From positions 372,001 to 436,000 of the forward strand of contig NZ_CP039291.1 of assembly GCF_004798685.1 (NCBI RefSeq): a DNA stretch of 64,000 nucleotides, given 5' to 3'. The stretch's first letter is position 1. The number at the start of each line of letters is the position of its first letter. Positions 8,174-15,616 of this stretch are shown one piece after another. The notes beneath the pieces were generated by a model that made no database searches, had not been told where the DNA came from, and saw only the letters and a list, made by a program, of their open reading frames with translations. The DNA is from Cellulomonas shaoxiangyii. GTDB lineage: Bacteria; Actinomycetota; Actinomycetes; Actinomycetales; Cellulomonadaceae. The translations under genes and the position numbers were made by a program.

Positions 8174-9514
8174 TCAGCAGCCCGTGCGTCGGGTGCCGGT
8201 GACGACGTCGTCGAACCAGAGGGTGTCGGCGCCGTCGCCGTAGCTCTCCCAGCCGAGCCGCAGGTCCGTGAGCCGCGGGGCCCACGCCTTGGCGTACCAC
8301 TGCCGGTCGACGTCGTGGGTGGGCGTGCCGTCGGCCACGAGACCCGGCACCTCGGTGCCGTCGAGCCACGTGGTCAGGCGGCCGGCGGTCCCGTCGACGA
8401 GCGCCTCGACGCAGTGCCACTGCTGGGTGGGCAGCGGGCGGGACAGGGCCACGCCCGCGGGGCTCTGCTCCGGCAGGGTCGCGTCGTCGGACGAGCGGTT
8501 CCACTGCAGCGCGCCGTTCTGGCCGCCCATGCGCAGGTCCTTGCCGCCGTCCGCCGCGTCGCGCATCGCCAGGAACGTCACGTGGGAGGCGGGCAGGGCC
8601 GTGGTGTGGCGGACCCAGAAGCGGACGTAGGTGGTCGGGGGCGGCGTGGCACCCGCGGGCAGCGCCGCGGTCTGCGCCTGGACGAAGACGTGGTTGCAGT
8701 AGCCCACCGCACCGTCGACGCGCAGGGAGCGGCTGCCGCTGCGGGCCACCGCCGAGTCGATGCTCGCGCGCCCCGTGCCCGAGCAGTCGGGGTGGGTCAC
8801 CGTCCACGGCGCCGACGGGGTGGTGGAGGTCTGCGTCTCGAAGCCGTCGCAGAACGTGCCCGTGCAGGTGCCGGGCGGGGTGGTGGGTGTCGGGGTGGGC
8901 GTCGGGGTGGGTGTCGACGTGGGCGTGGGGGTGACGGTCGGCGTCGGCGTGGGCGTCACGGTCGGGGAGGGGGTCGCGGTCGGCGTGGGCGTCACGGTCG
9001 GGGAGGGCGTGACGGTCGGGGATGCGGTGGGCGTGGGCAGGGACGTCGTCGCGGTCGGCGTCGGCAGGCCACCGTGGTCCGTGGGCACGGGGAGCGTCTC
9101 GCCCTCGCACAGCACGCCGTTTAGCAGGAACGGGCCGGGCCGCGGCGCCGGGTTCACGGTGGAGGTGCCCTGGTACCCGAACGTCACGGTCCCGCCCGCC
9201 GGGATCCGGCCGTTCCACGCCGCGTTCGTCGCGGTCCAGGACCCGCCGCGCTCGGTGACCTGGGCGCTCCACGCGTTCGTGAGGGTGTGCCGGCCCGATC
9301 CCCACGTCAGCGTCCAGCCGTCCCGTGCCGGCCCGGTCGTGATGCGGACCTCGGCGACGAAGCCGCCCGGCCACGAGCTCGCGGTCCACTGCACGGCGCA
9401 CGTCTCGACCGCCTGGGCGGAGGTGGCGACGTGCACGCCGAGGGACGTGAGCATCGCGGCGACCAGGACGGCGACGAGTGCGCGGGCGCGTGCGGTGAGG
9501 CGGCTGGTGGTCAT
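8174..9514 (-). CDS. Secreted CBM2 - Pro-Thr linker - lectin/lyase-like domain protein
   Basis: A 446-residue exported protein. It has a signal peptide (residues 1-35, ending near TSAQA), a CBM2-like module (about 38-140, with [20 protein letters not shown]), a long Pro-Thr-Val linker (about 150-215), then a C-terminal domain starting TFCDGFETQ and ending with a cysteine. The C-terminal domain has the FETQ...PWTV opening, [18 protein letters not shown] and [11 protein letters not shown] features of concanavalin-like beta-sandwich domains. By eye it resembles the Cip1-type proteins of cellulolytic microbes; that match is tentative and no catalytic residues can be assigned. ATG 9514 gives the clean signal peptide. 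It lies 25 bases upstream of the second CBM2 gene, so the two are probably cotranscribed. Confidence 0.82.
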
Positions 9515-9749
9515 CGTTCTCCCCGGGCGGGCGCCGTGGCGGCGCGGTGCAGCGACGACCTGCCCGGGGGCGGGGCGGTGTCGCACTCGACGACGCAAGC
9601 GTGCGCCCGCGGCCGAGCGGGGACCAGGCCGCGAACCGCTTCACCTGCCCGGACGCCACCGTCCGTCATGCGAAATCACGCCCGTCCGCATCCTGGTCCC
9701 GACCTACACTCGCCGGGTCCCCGACCCACCTCCCGGAAGCACCCGAACC

Positions 9750-12089
<2,340 letters not shown>

Positions 12090-12155
12090 CCCGCACGCGC
12101 TCGCCCGCCTCCTCCGTCACCTCGTCAGCTGTGCGCGACCTCGTCACGTGTGCGC

Positions 12156-12183
12156 GACCTCGTCACTCCGGAGTGACGAGGTC
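12156..12183. terminator. 28-bp perfect palindrome amid repeated half-sites
   Basis: GACCTCGTCACTCC is followed immediately by its exact reverse complement. Further partial copies flank it: CCTCGTCA near 12119, GCGACCTCGTCAC near 12135, and GGAGTGACGAGGTC at 12190-12203 in the opposite sense. It lies between convergent asd and the repeat-protein gene, so a bidirectional terminator is the simplest reading. The extra copies suggest a mobile or dispersed palindromic repeat family. Confidence 0.65.
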
Positions 12184-12236
12184 GCCGCGGGAGTGACGAG
12201 GTCGACGGTGGGAGGCGCACGTGGTCGAGGGCGGCG

Positions 12237-13061
12237 TCACCGCTCGCTCGGGGGCGGCCCGTCGGACGGGCGGACCGGCACGTCGTCGCGGGCGGGGTCC
12301 GAGGGGCGGACCGGTGCGTCGTCGCGGCTCGGGTCGGCCGGGCGGGCCGGTCCGTCGTCGCGGCTCGCCCCCGACGGCGGGACGGGCACCTCGCCGCCGT
12401 CGAGGAGCGTGCGGCCGACGCGCGCCTTGACCTCCAGCTCCTCGCCCTCCCAGACCGTCATGAGGCGGCGCAGGTCGTCGATCGTGTACCCGGCGGCCCA
12501 GAAGGCGGCGAGCTCGTCGTCCCGGCGCATGTCCGCCGCGACCCCGGGCGCCGCGAGCAACGCCTCGTCCACGGGCGGTGCCTGGCCCTCCAGCAGCATC
12601 TGGCCGGCCCGCGCCTTCGCCTCGATCACGTCGACCTGCCACAGCTCGCTCAGCGCCTGGGCCTCCTGGATGCCGTACGCGTCCCAGTACGTGTCGTACT
12701 GGTCGCGGGAGTAGCCCTCGGGCATGGGCGACCAGTCGATCCCGGCCGCCTGCACGGCGCCCTCGACCGCACGCGCCACGTCCGAGTACGGGTTCGTGGC
12801 GGCGGCCGCACCGGCCCCCGCGATCGCGAGCGTGCCCGTGACGACGCCCGCCGCGACGATCTTCCCGCCGCGGTGCAGCGCGCGCACGGGTGCGGGCGGG
12901 GCGTCCCGGGCCGCCGCGCGCAGGCGCGCGGCGACGTCGTCGAGGTCGGGGTGCTGCGCGGCGGCCCGCGCGTGCAGTGCGCGGGTGATGCGTGCGGCGA
13001 GCTCGTCGTCGGTGGCCGGGAACGGGGGCGGGTCGTCCGCCGCCCGCTGCTGCTCGCTCAT
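12237..13061 (-). CDS. Membrane repeat-domain protein, anti-sigma-like in layout
   Basis: A 274-residue protein with one membrane span (about residues 67-89, KIVAAGVVTGTLAIAGAGAA). The 65-residue cytoplasmic N-terminus carries LAARITRALHAR and DDVAARLRAAARD helices. Outside the span there are two copies of a roughly 50-residue domain (116-164 and 180-228), with the pattern W-x-x-G-Y-T-x-D-D then K-A-R-x-G-x-x-L-L-[DE]-G. The tail (232-268) is three copies of xRDDxPxRPxD. The ATG overlaps the sigma-factor stop by four bases, so the two are translationally coupled. This gene order and topology are those of a sigma/anti-sigma pair, but no known anti-sigma domain is recognised. The same repeat occurs in the secreted or anchored protein at 14886. 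Confidence 0.82.
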   Translation of the reverse strand: MSEQQRAADDPPPFPATDDELAARITRALHARAAAQHPDLDDVAARLRAAARDAPPAPVRALHRGGKIVAAGVVTGTLAIAGAGAAAATNPYSDVARAVEGAVQAAGIDWSPMPEGYSRDQYDTYWDAYGIQEAQALSELWQVDVIEAKARAGQMLLEGQAPPVDEALLAAPGVAADMRRDDELAAFWAAGYTIDDLRRLMTVWEGEELEVKARVGRTLLDGGEVPVPPSGASRDDGPARPADPSRDDAPVRPSDPARDDVPVRPSDGPPPSER

Positions 13062-13768
13062 CGGTGCTCCGGTGGGGTGGTGAGGTCGGTCTGGCGCAGC
13101 GCGGCCAGGGCGCGGGAGGCGTGGGACCGGACGGTCGCGGAGGACGTGCCGAGCACGGTCGCGATCTCCGGGTCGGACAGGCCCTCGTAGTACCGCAGCA
13201 CGAGCACGGCGCGCTGCCGTGGCGGCAGCGCGGCGAGGTGCTGCCACATGGCGTCGTCGTGCACCACGTCGTCCGCGTGGTCGGCGTGCGGGTCCGCGTG
13301 CGTGGCGAGGACGTCGTCCGCGGCGGGGTGGATCGTCCGCACGTGCCAGCGCCGGCGCCACGACAGGTGCTCGTTGGTCACCATGCGGCGCAGGTACAGG
13401 TCGGGGCGCTCCATCAGCGAGATGCGCGTCCAGCGCAGGTGCGCCCGCAGCAGCACCTCCTGCACGAGGTCCGCCGCCGTGTGGCCGTCGCCCGTGAGGA
13501 CCGTCGCATAGCGCAGCAGGCCCGGGAGGTGGTCGCGCACGACGTCGTCGAGGGCGCGGGCCGCGACGCGGGTGAGGGGCGCCGGACCGGTGGCCACGGC
13601 GTCCGGCACGCCCCGCGCGGACGCACCGTGATCCGGTGGGTGGTGGTCCGGTGGGCCGGGGTGCGTGCCGGGGTGCGTGCCGGCCGCCCCGCGCTCGCGC
13701 ACGCGGCCGGCCCCGACGAGCGGGATCGCCGCGGAGTCCGGGCCGGCGGGCCGCATCCACGTGGTCAC
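13058..13768 (-). CDS. ECF/SigE-type RNA polymerase sigma factor
   Basis: A 236-residue sigma-70 family factor. Region 2 is recognisable in HLPGLLRYATVLTGDGHTAA to LVQEVLLRAHLRW, and region 4 in LPPRQRAVLVLRYYEGLSD followed by the helix-turn-helix IATVLGTSSATVRSHASRAL. Between them, VTNEHLSWRRRW is typical of the SigE-like actinobacterial group. The GTG at 13768 overlaps the amidoligase stop by four bases. The first 60 residues are low-complexity (GTHPGTHPGPPDHHPPDHG) and may not be translated; a later start cannot be excluded. It is sandwiched between the amidoligase and the membrane repeat protein, so it probably controls this locus. Confidence 0.88.
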   Translation of the reverse strand: MTTWMRPAGPDSAAIPLVGAGRVRERGAAGTHPGTHPGPPDHHPPDHGASARGVPDAVATGPAPLTRVAARALDDVVRDHLPGLLRYATVLTGDGHTAADLVQEVLLRAHLRWTRISLMERPDLYLRRMVTNEHLSWRRRWHVRTIHPAADDVLATHADPHADHADDVVHDDAMWQHLAALPPRQRAVLVLRYYEGLSDPEIATVLGTSSATVRSHASRALAALRQTDLTTPPEHR

Positions 13769-14850
13769 CGGACCACCACGCCCGCGAGGTCCGCGAGCGC
13801 CGCGCGCGGGTCGTGGGCCGCGGCGGCGCCGGGCCGGGGGAGCGGCGCGGGGTCGAGGCAGCGCAGCAGCAGCCGCTCGACGAGCGCCGCACGGCGGACG
13901 ACGGCGTGGCCGTCGATCTCGCCGGGCAGGACCCGGACCTCCACCGTGTCCCGCACCGGCCGGTCCGTGACGAGCTGCGTGAGGTTCACGTCCGCGTACT
14001 TGGTGAGGCCGACCGCCCGCGCCTCGGCGCGCAGGCCGGCCCACCCGGCGTCGTCGTCGGCCCAGGGACGCTCCACCAGCGCCACGAGTGCGTCGGGCAG
14101 CGGTGCGAGGCGCCGGCACGCCGGGTTGGTCCCGAGCGCCGCCCACAGCGGCTCGCGCCAGTGCGCGAACAGCCGCACGAGGTTGGCGAACGCCGCCGGC
14201 CGCCGGAACGGGGCGCCGTCGACGTGCACGTGCACCGCCGCCTCGTGGGGCACGGTGAACCCGAGGGCCCGTGCCGGGGCGAGCAGCCGCTCGAGGGCGG
14301 CGGCGTGGTCCGTGCCGATCGGCGGCGTGACCACCTCGCAGGGGCGCTCGCGGCCGGCGGGCAGCGGGAGGGCGACCGCGATCGTCGCGCCCGTCGGGTC
14401 GTTGACCCGCGCGGCGCCGGGGAAGACGTCGGCCCGGACGTCGAACAGGTCCGCGACCGGGTCGAGCACCGTCGCGAGCGGCGCGGCCGGGTCCGCGTGG
14501 TGCGCGACGAGCCGCAGCAGCCGCGCGTCGTCGGACAGCAGCCGGTACCACCCCCGGTGCCCGGGCCGCGCCCGCGACCCGGGCACCGGGGCGAGGTCCG
14601 CCTCGATGGTGATGTCGTCCACCAGCCGGGCGACCGGCGCACCGGCCGCGTCGACCACGTCGAACGCGGGCGACAGGTGGCGGAAGACGCCCACGCCCGG
14701 CACCGCCGACGGCTCGCTGTCCGTGTGGAAGGAGCGGTGCACGGCGCCGCCGTGGCGCTCGGCGAGCACGACCGCCAGCTCCTGCCGGTCGGAGCCGGCG
14801 GGCGCCAGCAGCTCGATCTCGAACCCCGTGCGCAGCGACAGCTCGTCCAC
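13765..14850 (-). CDS. Putative amidoligase (COOH-NH2 ligase fold)
   Basis: A 361-residue protein that looks like the amidoligase family, related to glutamine synthetase and glutamate-cysteine ligase. The N-terminal TGFEIELLAP (G9, E11, E13) matches the metal/ATP-binding GxExE motif, and VHVHVDGAPF near residue 204 matches the family HVHV element. Such enzymes join a carboxyl to an amine using ATP; the substrates of most bacterial members are unknown. GTG 14850 has AGAGGA six bases upstream. The gene overlaps the sigma factor by four bases and follows the repeat-protein gene by 35 bases, so all four genes appear to be one unit. No membrane segment or signal is seen. Confidence 0.75.
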   Translation of the reverse strand: MDELSLRTGFEIELLAPAGSDRQELAVVLAERHGGAVHRSFHTDSEPSAVPGVGVFRHLSPAFDVVDAAGAPVARLVDDITIEADLAPVPGSRARPGHRGWYRLLSDDARLLRLVAHHADPAAPLATVLDPVADLFDVRADVFPGAARVNDPTGATIAVALPLPAGRERPCEVVTPPIGTDHAAALERLLAPARALGFTVPHEAAVHVHVDGAPFRRPAAFANLVRLFAHWREPLWAALGTNPACRRLAPLPDALVALVERPWADDDAGWAGLRAEARAVGLTKYADVNLTQLVTDRPVRDTVEVRVLPGEIDGHAVVRRAALVERLLLRCLDPAPLPRPGAAAAHDPRAALADLAGVVVR

Positions 14851-14885
14851 GTCGGTCCTCTCGTCGGGGGTGCCGGGCGGCGGGG

Positions 14886-15494
14886 TCAGGAGCCGGCGAC
14901 GGTGCTGCCGGGGGCGACGGGGAGAGTCTGCCCGTCGAGGAGCGCCTGGCCGGCGCGCGCCTTGGTCTCGATGATCTCCGTGCCCCACAGCGCCGCGAGG
15001 GCCAGCGCGTCGTCGTACGTGTAGCCCGCGTCCCAGAAGGCGTCGTACTGCGCGGGGGTGTACTCGACGGCGGGCGGCGCGTCGGTCGCCGGCGCGGCGC
15101 CCTCGGCACCGTCGGCGGGGGCCGCCGCCGGGGCCGGCGCGTCCTCGGGCGCCTCCGGCCGGGACGTCTCCATGATCGAGAACGGCGTGGACCCCGGCGC
15201 GACGGGCAGCTCCTCGCCGTCGAGGATCATCTGGCCCGCACGGGCCTTCGTCTCCGTGTACCCGGTGCCCCACAGCTCGGCCAGGGCGGTGGCGTCATCG
15301 TGCGTGTAGCCGGCGCCCCAGAAGGCCTCGTACTGCTCCTTGGTGTAGCCGTCCGGCATGCCGGACCAGTCGACGCCGACGGCGTCGAGCGCGCTGCCGA
15401 CCGCCTTGCCGGCGGCCGAGTCCGGGTTGGCGGCGATCGCCGCGCCGGCGCCGCCGACGGTGAGCGTCGCGGCGATGACGCCGACCGCCACCAT
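14886..15494 (-). CDS. Exported or anchored repeat-domain protein, probable 5' frameshift
   Basis: As called from ATG 15494: 202 residues, with a hydrophobic segment at 1-22 (signal anchor or signal peptide) and two copies of the same repeat domain as the 12237 protein (50-101 and 145-197), separated by an Ala/Pro linker. Each copy carries FWxAGYTxDDAxALAxLW and TKARAGQ. The best ribosome-binding site (GGAGG) precedes a different ATG at 15532 that is one frame off. Adding one C to the CCC run just after that ATG would fuse it cleanly, giving MNPEHHDQPRRRR before the hydrophobic stretch. A one-base deletion or a sequencing error is therefore likely. Function is unknown. Confidence 0.7.
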   Translation of the reverse strand: MVAVGVIAATLTVGGAGAAIAANPDSAAGKAVGSALDAVGVDWSGMPDGYTKEQYEAFWGAGYTHDDATALAELWGTGYTETKARAGQMILDGEELPVAPGSTPFSIMETSRPEAPEDAPAPAAAPADGAEGAAPATDAPPAVEYTPAQYDAFWDAGYTYDDALALAALWGTEIIETKARAGQALLDGQTLPVAPGSTVAGS

Positions 15495-15616
15495 GCGGCG
15501 GCGGCGGGGCTGGTCGTGGTGCTCGGGTTCATCGGGTCCTCCGTGAGGGCTCGTGGATGCGTGCCCCCTCAGAACGCGGCTCGACCCGGATGTGTGGAGT
15601 CGCCGGGCCCGCGGTC

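Follow-up and report, generated by a model that had tools for sequence, protein, structure and literature searches.

The Amidoligase_2 family and other glutamine-synthetase-like (GS-like) ligases are reportedly the subject of Iyer et al. 2009. A GS-derived carboxylate-amine ligase, PafA of the pupylation system, joins a carboxylate to protein lysines, and a GS-derived ligase can therefore have protein lysines as its targets (available portion of PMC3511204). In Clostridium thermocellum, the anti-sigma factor RsgI combines an outer domain, a membrane span and a cytoplasmic part that binds the sigma factor SigI, and the sigma factor autoregulates (available portion of PMC4711584). Here we describe a locus in which a predicted amidoligase, a putative sigma/anti-sigma pair and a repeat domain occur together. 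It lies on the minus strand at positions 12237-15532 of a 64,000-nucleotide stretch of Cellulomonas shaoxiangyii DNA (hereafter the window; contig NZ_CP039291.1, positions 372,001 to 436,000), from a genome that is a single contig of 3.9 Mb and has Cellulomonas as its nearest named relatives. Four genes follow one another: REP, a repeat protein; AMID, an amidoligase of GS fold; SIG, a SigE-family extracytoplasmic function (ECF) sigma factor; and ANTI, a single-span repeat protein. Four-base overlaps join AMID to SIG (13765-13768) and SIG to ANTI (13058-13061), and there is none between REP and AMID. These coordinates agree with a sequence-only reading of the window, which had placed four genes on one strand with the last three joined in this way.

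The linkage of the four genes is almost certainly not due to chance, and sequence comparison points to one functional unit. We searched a family sample of 221 genomes for the repeat, with ANTI as query. The repeat was found in 55 genomes and AMID in 51, and all 51 AMID genomes have the repeat. The repeat-only genomes are G003 (840 contigs), G155 (91% complete), G186 (83% complete) and G039 (complete, its REP having one unit); searched again for AMID, these four yielded none. Sixty loci read from the family genomes and the window cover 48 of the 55 AMID matches. The arrangement is REP-AMID-SIG-ANTI for 42 of these 48 AMID genes, REP-AMID for four and AMID-SIG-ANTI for one, and in the last case (G031) REP lies about 7 kb from AMID. 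One genome, apparently C. phragmiteti (G054, locus L036), has two AMID copies about 7 kb apart, the second forming AMID-SIG-ANTI without REP. ANTI is directly downstream of SIG and overlaps it in 43 of 43 cases; the overlap is 4 bases long in 39 of them and a single base in the other 4. AMID and SIG share a 4-base overlap in 28 of 43; in the remaining 15 the script detected no standard start codon close to where AMID ends.

The same association is seen at wider taxonomic range. A class sample (345 genomes) has AMID in five genomes and the repeat in the same five; a phylum sample (346 genomes) has both in the same two, adjacent in G830. Each sample includes the window's genome, and few candidates were scored per genome in these two, so remote relatives could be missed. 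Among the AMID genomes of the three samples (51, 5 and 2, the window's genome being in all three), none is without the repeat. In a named scan of 56 loci, some from the same organisms as the family-sample genomes, the repeat gene ends no more than 400 bases from AMID in 54. The exceptions are L110, one of the C. phragmiteti copies, which keeps SIG and ANTI, and L142, where the contig begins inside AMID and a REP from the same bin sits at one end of a different contig (L157). As a control, all frames of seven reference loci were compared with all 56 loci. AMID frames recurred in 53-56. Repeat frames did so in 41-50, or in 17 when taken from the Microbacteriaceae reference, and sigma frames, from those references that carry one, in 37-39. 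No frame outside the unit recurred in more than nine. Linkage in relatives had been singled out by the sequence-only reading as one of the points on which its proposal could fail; a hidden Markov model (HMM) of the repeat and a co-occurrence search were run, and the linkage is kept.

Judged by gene content, the repeat and the amidoligase are the constant core, and the attached signalling switch is exchanged. REP-AMID-SIG-ANTI (type A) occurs in Cellulomonadaceae, Promicromonosporaceae, Sanguibacter, Kineococcus and Quadrisphaera, the last with AMID split over two frames (L151). SIG-ANTI-AMID (type B), with two to four repeats in ANTI, occurs in Actinoplanes, Paractinoplanes, Virgisporangium, Acidothermaceae, a Frankiales bin and an unplaced bin. 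In the seven type C loci, REP-AMID is followed by a HisKA_3-type kinase and a LuxR-type (NarL-type) regulator; these come from Agreia (three), Frigoribacterium (two), Curtobacterium sp. Leaf261 and one further member of Microbacteriaceae. Two Curtobacterium loci have an OmpR-type regulator and a kinase after REP-AMID (type D). Type M is REP-AMID with no signalling gene seen adjacent, as in L121 (where the upstream sequence is short), L143 and the Cellulomonas pairs; in the type M locus of G830 a Ser/Thr kinase gene lies upstream on the opposite strand. Pfam checks of the two-component genes covered the L137 kinase, the L130 regulator and both L138 genes, and the other loci were assigned by similarity to these. 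The arrangement labels are our own, and rows cut by a contig end downstream (for example L108, L122 and L133) were assigned to A on grounds of kinship.

On an AMID tree of 59 rows, from which the truncated or split loci L151, L153 and L157 were left out, types B, C and D form one group each with starred support; A and M do not (two and three changes). The five labels together require five changes, where the minimum possible is four and the shuffled mean is 20.1. A core that includes the sigma factor, as the sequence-only reading had it, does not hold: loci of Microbacteriaceae have two-component systems instead, and some loci have no signalling gene.

The repeat itself appears to be an undescribed exported helical domain. 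REP and ANTI each carry two units of about 45-50 residues and the motif [VI]DWSxMPxGY (VDWSGMPDGY in REP, IDWSPMPEGY in ANTI). Both the paired units and the common motif had been recognized from the window alone; the longer consensus string quoted with them is not conserved as a whole, the best-kept positions being W25, K33, G37, G43 and P47. A unit HMM built from 209 units of the family set finds two units in 102 of 107 REP and ANTI proteins and one in the other five, all REP; the one-unit REPs that we inspected are fragments or broken or truncated genes. W25 and K33 are present in every one of the 209 units and P47 in each of the 205 that extend far enough; L21 and G43 occur in 98%, G37 in 95% and D17 in 94%. 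The five best-kept positions are retained in 18 of 18 units from SIG-ANTI-AMID loci. The 11 loci without a sigma factor keep W25 and G37 in 33 of 33 units and K33 in 23 of 33, with at least one K33 per protein. By its spacing the lysine would lie on the same side of a helix as the conserved small residues, and it may therefore be structural.

An AlphaFold2 model of the window ANTI (81 sequences) has two three-helix units with a predicted local distance difference test (pLDDT) score of about 92-98 and poor confidence around the span. REP and ANTI gave no convincing Pfam or NCBIfam family match and matched no solved structure by sequence, and no solved fold stood out in structure comparison. The idea that the repeat is unrecognized has thus withstood a search for a known domain in Pfam, NCBIfam and solved structures. 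Pfam likewise gave no match to a module that binds carbohydrate or cell wall, either for the window proteins or for the eight relative rows checked.

SIG and ANTI are very probably a sigma/anti-sigma pair, as judged from their sequences and gene order, and we infer that ANTI binds SIG. SIG scores 144.7 bits against TIGR02983 (cut-off 141.55) and has regions 2 and 4 (PF04542 and PF08281, both above cut-off). The sigma factors of three out of six relatives also pass TIGR02983; the other three fall 3.9-9.5 bits short, with TIGR02983 still their best match. ANTI has a cytoplasmic part of about 65 residues and one hydrophobic span, whose best 19-residue Kyte-Doolittle window scores 1.84 from residue 68; second-best windows average 0.76 across 45 ANTI proteins. 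Arg and Lys residues precede the span, and the predicted topology has the N-terminal part inside. The anti-sigma layout proposed earlier, with a cytoplasmic part of this length, one span and the repeats outside, is thus borne out as a prediction. In the model, the cytoplasmic part forms helices at 18-36 and 40-53 (pLDDT blocks 63-78), with a low-confidence stretch at 61-75 running into the span. It contains no cysteine, so the zinc motif Hx3Cx2C is absent.

The operon is also marked by a predicted promoter motif. Of 59 REP-type genes, 44 have CT[CG][CA]ACA-N16/17-CGT upstream, namely 42 that head sigma-type operons plus L075 and L090. It precedes 42 of the 42 examinable REP genes heading such an operon (window included; the broken REP of L034 left out). 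The spacer is 16 nucleotides in 38 cases and 17 in six, and the motif sits about 35-44 nucleotides before the REP start, or 74 in the window because the in-frame REP start is displaced there. Mononucleotide shuffles lead one to expect the motif in 0.26 of 59 cases, a figure to be read with the sequences being related rather than independent. It is missing from 15 REP-type genes, all of which either stand alone, are extra REP copies or belong to REP-AMID pairs. In form, distance and company the motif fits autoregulation by SIG, which we consider probable.

AMID is, in all likelihood, an active ligase, as its family match and model suggest. Its sole Pfam match is Amidoligase_2 (PF12224; 58.5 bits, gathering cut-off 22, E 1.2e-15). 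The predicted fold is of GS type, with GxExE on the first strand and conserved catalytic-type residues, and its structural neighbours by fold are the small-molecule ligases glutamine synthetase, glutamate-cysteine ligase and YbdK. No relative of known structure was found for the AMID clade by sequence.

Features of the locus in the window (positions count from the first letter of the 64,000-nucleotide stretch)
Feature	Position	Strand	Basis or detail
REP, exported or membrane-anchored repeat protein	14886..15532	-	first in-frame ATG 15494; stop at 14886
REP repeat unit 1	15195..15347	-	unit HMM; coordinates hand-counted on translation
REP repeat unit 2	14910..15062	-	unit HMM; coordinates hand-counted on translation
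AMID, Amidoligase_2 (PF12224), predicted GS-type fold, 361 aa, GTG start	13765..14850	-	
SIG, SigE-family ECF sigma factor, GTG start	13058..13768	-	TIGR02983; Sigma70_r2 + r4_2
ANTI, putative anti-sigma factor, 274 aa, ATG start	12237..13061	-	cytoplasmic helices, one span, two outer repeats
ANTI membrane span (approximate)	12795..12860	-	best Kyte-Doolittle window
ANTI repeat unit 1 (approximate)	12570..12713	-	unit HMM; predicted helices 119-128, 131-141, 145-157
ANTI repeat unit 2 (approximate)	12378..12524	-	unit HMM; predicted helices 172-189, 194-204, 208-220
Predicted ECF-type promoter	15571..15599	-	-35 CTCCACA (15593-15599), 16-nt spacer, -10 CGTTCT (15571-15576)

The start of REP in the window deserves comment. 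The ATG at 15532 is preceded by a ribosome-binding site and is out of frame with the REP repeats; from this ATG to the hydrophobic segment, the window REP is one base shorter than its close relatives L033 and L090. Either the gene is frameshifted, or the assembly has an error, or translation begins at 15494. The REP of G071 is likewise broken, split over two frames. On this point the sequence-only reading, which let the locus run to 15532, is corrected.

Other observations concern the surroundings of the locus and repeat proteins elsewhere. The gap that separates the end of ANTI from the upstream plus-strand gene contains a perfect 32-bp palindrome (12154-12185; GCGACCTCGTCACTCC / GGAGTGACGAGGTCGC). 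More copies of it, all partial, are found at 12119-12207, and the 28-bp core of the palindrome has a single position in the genome. Plus-strand genes at 8760-12089, which by eye resemble those for aspartate kinase and aspartate-semialdehyde dehydrogenase, point towards ANTI. The Quadrisphaera locus (L151, 3-707 and upstream) has, besides SIG-ANTI, a minus-strand Agreia-like regulator gene about 4 kb upstream of REP. Stand-alone REP paralogues (L079-L087 and L089) mostly begin M[KNT]P..ST and have two repeats and no sigma-type promoter. Kineococcus vitellinus has a second SigE-family sigma factor with a three-repeat anti-sigma-like gene (L183, 3557-4995), on a 5.9-kb contig without AMID. Actinoplanes sp. 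NBRC 103695 has two extra repeat proteins away from SIG-ANTI-AMID (L182, 6840-7793; L181, 5486-6856), one of which carries a single repeat behind an anti-sigma-like segment.

Building on the gene unit, the co-occurrence, the promoter motif, the predicted fold and residues of AMID and the repeat common to REP and ANTI, all of them read from sequence, we infer sigma binding, autoregulation, catalysis, substrate, lysine and signal. The best overall explanation, put forward tentatively, is a self-amplifying envelope signalling module around an enzyme-substrate pair, AMID and the repeats. ANTI would hold SIG at the membrane. On its outer side ANTI is predicted to carry the same two-repeat domain as REP, and it would therefore report what REP binds or how REP is made. 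A changed state of the outer repeats would release SIG; free SIG would transcribe its own operon from CT[CG]CACA-N16/17-CGT, and REP, AMID, SIG and ANTI would rise together. AMID, as an ATP-dependent carboxylate-amine ligase, would modify the repeat domains covalently while they are still in the cytoplasm and not yet exported; the first site to consider in each unit is its near-invariant lysine. We take the repeat as the AMID substrate because AMID's constant partner is the repeat and not the sigma factor, and we rate this at somewhat under an even chance. It is unlikely that K33 is the modification site. Equally unlikely is the fullest version, in which AMID would put an isopeptide or other amide on the unit lysine, the ANTI units would act as a sentinel substrate, SIG would read the modification state, and re-wiring would have connected the pair to two kinds of two-component system.

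AMID might instead make a small amide, for example of gamma-glutamyl type, that is exported and bound by the repeats, with REP as carrier or buffer and ANTI as receptor. This idea, though doubtful, comes close behind the repeat as substrate and is nearly its match: the fold neighbours of AMID (glutamine synthetase, glutamate-cysteine ligase, YbdK) are small-molecule ligases, and a repeat outside with AMID inside is accounted for. However, the pair has neither an exporter gene nor another biosynthetic gene as a conserved neighbour, outside frames recurring in at most nine of 56 loci. That the amidoligase makes or tags a ligand was the sequence-only reading's suggestion, and ligand-making is not favoured over action on the repeats. 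Of that interpretation as a whole, the conserved locus, the anti-sigma topology, the undescribed repeat and the linkage remain; the sigma factor as a constant part does not.

Rather improbable, to our minds, is an RsgI-like arrangement in which the repeats bind a polymer, either of the envelope or extracellular, and AMID acts on a precursor of the wall. It would explain why the anti-sigma factor and a co-encoded exported protein have one outer domain in common, and it suits the proline-rich linkers between units and the two-component systems in the same place, which fit envelope sensing; the missing carbohydrate- or wall-binding Pfam match speaks against it, and by itself it leaves the same-genome occurrence of repeat and AMID in two samples unexplained. 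AMID is tightly coupled with SIG and ANTI in sigma-type loci, as it would be if it acted as a cytoplasmic regulator by modifying SIG or the cytoplasmic part of ANTI, but AMID and the repeat persist without an adjacent sigma factor (Microbacteriaceae, L121, L143, G830, L076, L077 and L088), which makes this very improbable. Inherited gene order with no shared function is scarcely credible. Most loci do come from related families; yet AMID and the repeat occupy the same genomes in the class and phylum samples, gene orders differ in distant clades and the switch is exchanged, flanks recur in at most nine of 56 loci, and no AMID genome among the 51, 5 and 2 (the window's in all three) is without the repeat.

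Several observations weigh against a module built on modification of the repeats. Inspection by eye showed no evident signal peptide in AMID, yet the repeats are predicted to lie outside, and modification would have to take place before they are exported. In sigma-less loci 10 of 33 units lack K33, which could have a structural role. Ten stand-alone REP loci have no adjacent AMID (AMID being elsewhere in the genome), and the complete genome G039 has a one-unit REP and no AMID that we could find. The K. vitellinus SIG-ANTI pair, with its three-repeat ANTI, has no adjacent AMID. In SIG-ANTI-AMID loci ANTI is the only adjacent repeat protein. The window REP start looks frameshifted and the G071 REP is broken, so REP may be dispensable in these two strains. 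The Cellulomonas stand-alone REP genes and REP-AMID pairs lack the promoter motif, and no SIG target beyond its own operon was established.

How does the proposed enzyme-substrate signalling module compare with described systems? Its parts are of known kinds, and we found no description of the repeat or of the four-gene combination in the titles and abstract starts listed from the openly licensed part of PubMed Central. With class I anti-sigma systems of ECF sigma factors it shares sigma regions 2 and 4, an overlapping downstream gene for a putative anti-sigma factor and a single span; it differs in adding an amidoligase and a repeat protein (available portion of PMC7406223). The class I domain has four helices, in some cases with Hx3Cx2C, whereas ANTI has two helices of moderate confidence and no cytoplasmic cysteine (same portion). 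AMID resembles Amidoligase_2 and GS-like ligases in its Pfam family, predicted fold and conserved acidic, histidine and arginine positions, and stands apart as a distinct clade that nearly always adjoins an exported helical repeat gene. Unlike PafA, AMID has PF12224 as its only Pfam match and an exported repeat as its proposed target. A Pup-like GGE or GGQ ending was found in 0 of 36 REP rows, in a search confined to REP C-termini; the E/Q end of the Pup motif draws in part on the available portion of PMC3511204. For a clade of a large enzyme family, Amidoligase_2, the locus offers a defined partner, perhaps a substrate.

The proposed module is like RsgI/SigI in the layout of its putative anti-sigma factor, in a sigma factor that probably autoregulates and in the outer domain: that of RsgI is of a kind also used by the secreted proteins of its system, as ANTI's is by REP (this and the following comparisons draw on the available portion of PMC4711584). 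SIG has regions 2 and 4, whereas SigI is without region 4 and carries a C-terminal domain of its own. For the most part the outer domains of RsgI proteins are carbohydrate-binding modules; the present repeat matches none and possibly represents a new kind of module. An amidoligase, part of the present operon, goes unmentioned for RsgI/SigI in that portion. Two unrelated kinds of two-component system replace sigma and anti-sigma beside the constant pair, which makes a natural comparison of envelope-switch sensing. Moreover, an anti-sigma outer domain identical in kind to a co-encoded exported protein makes the signal testable.

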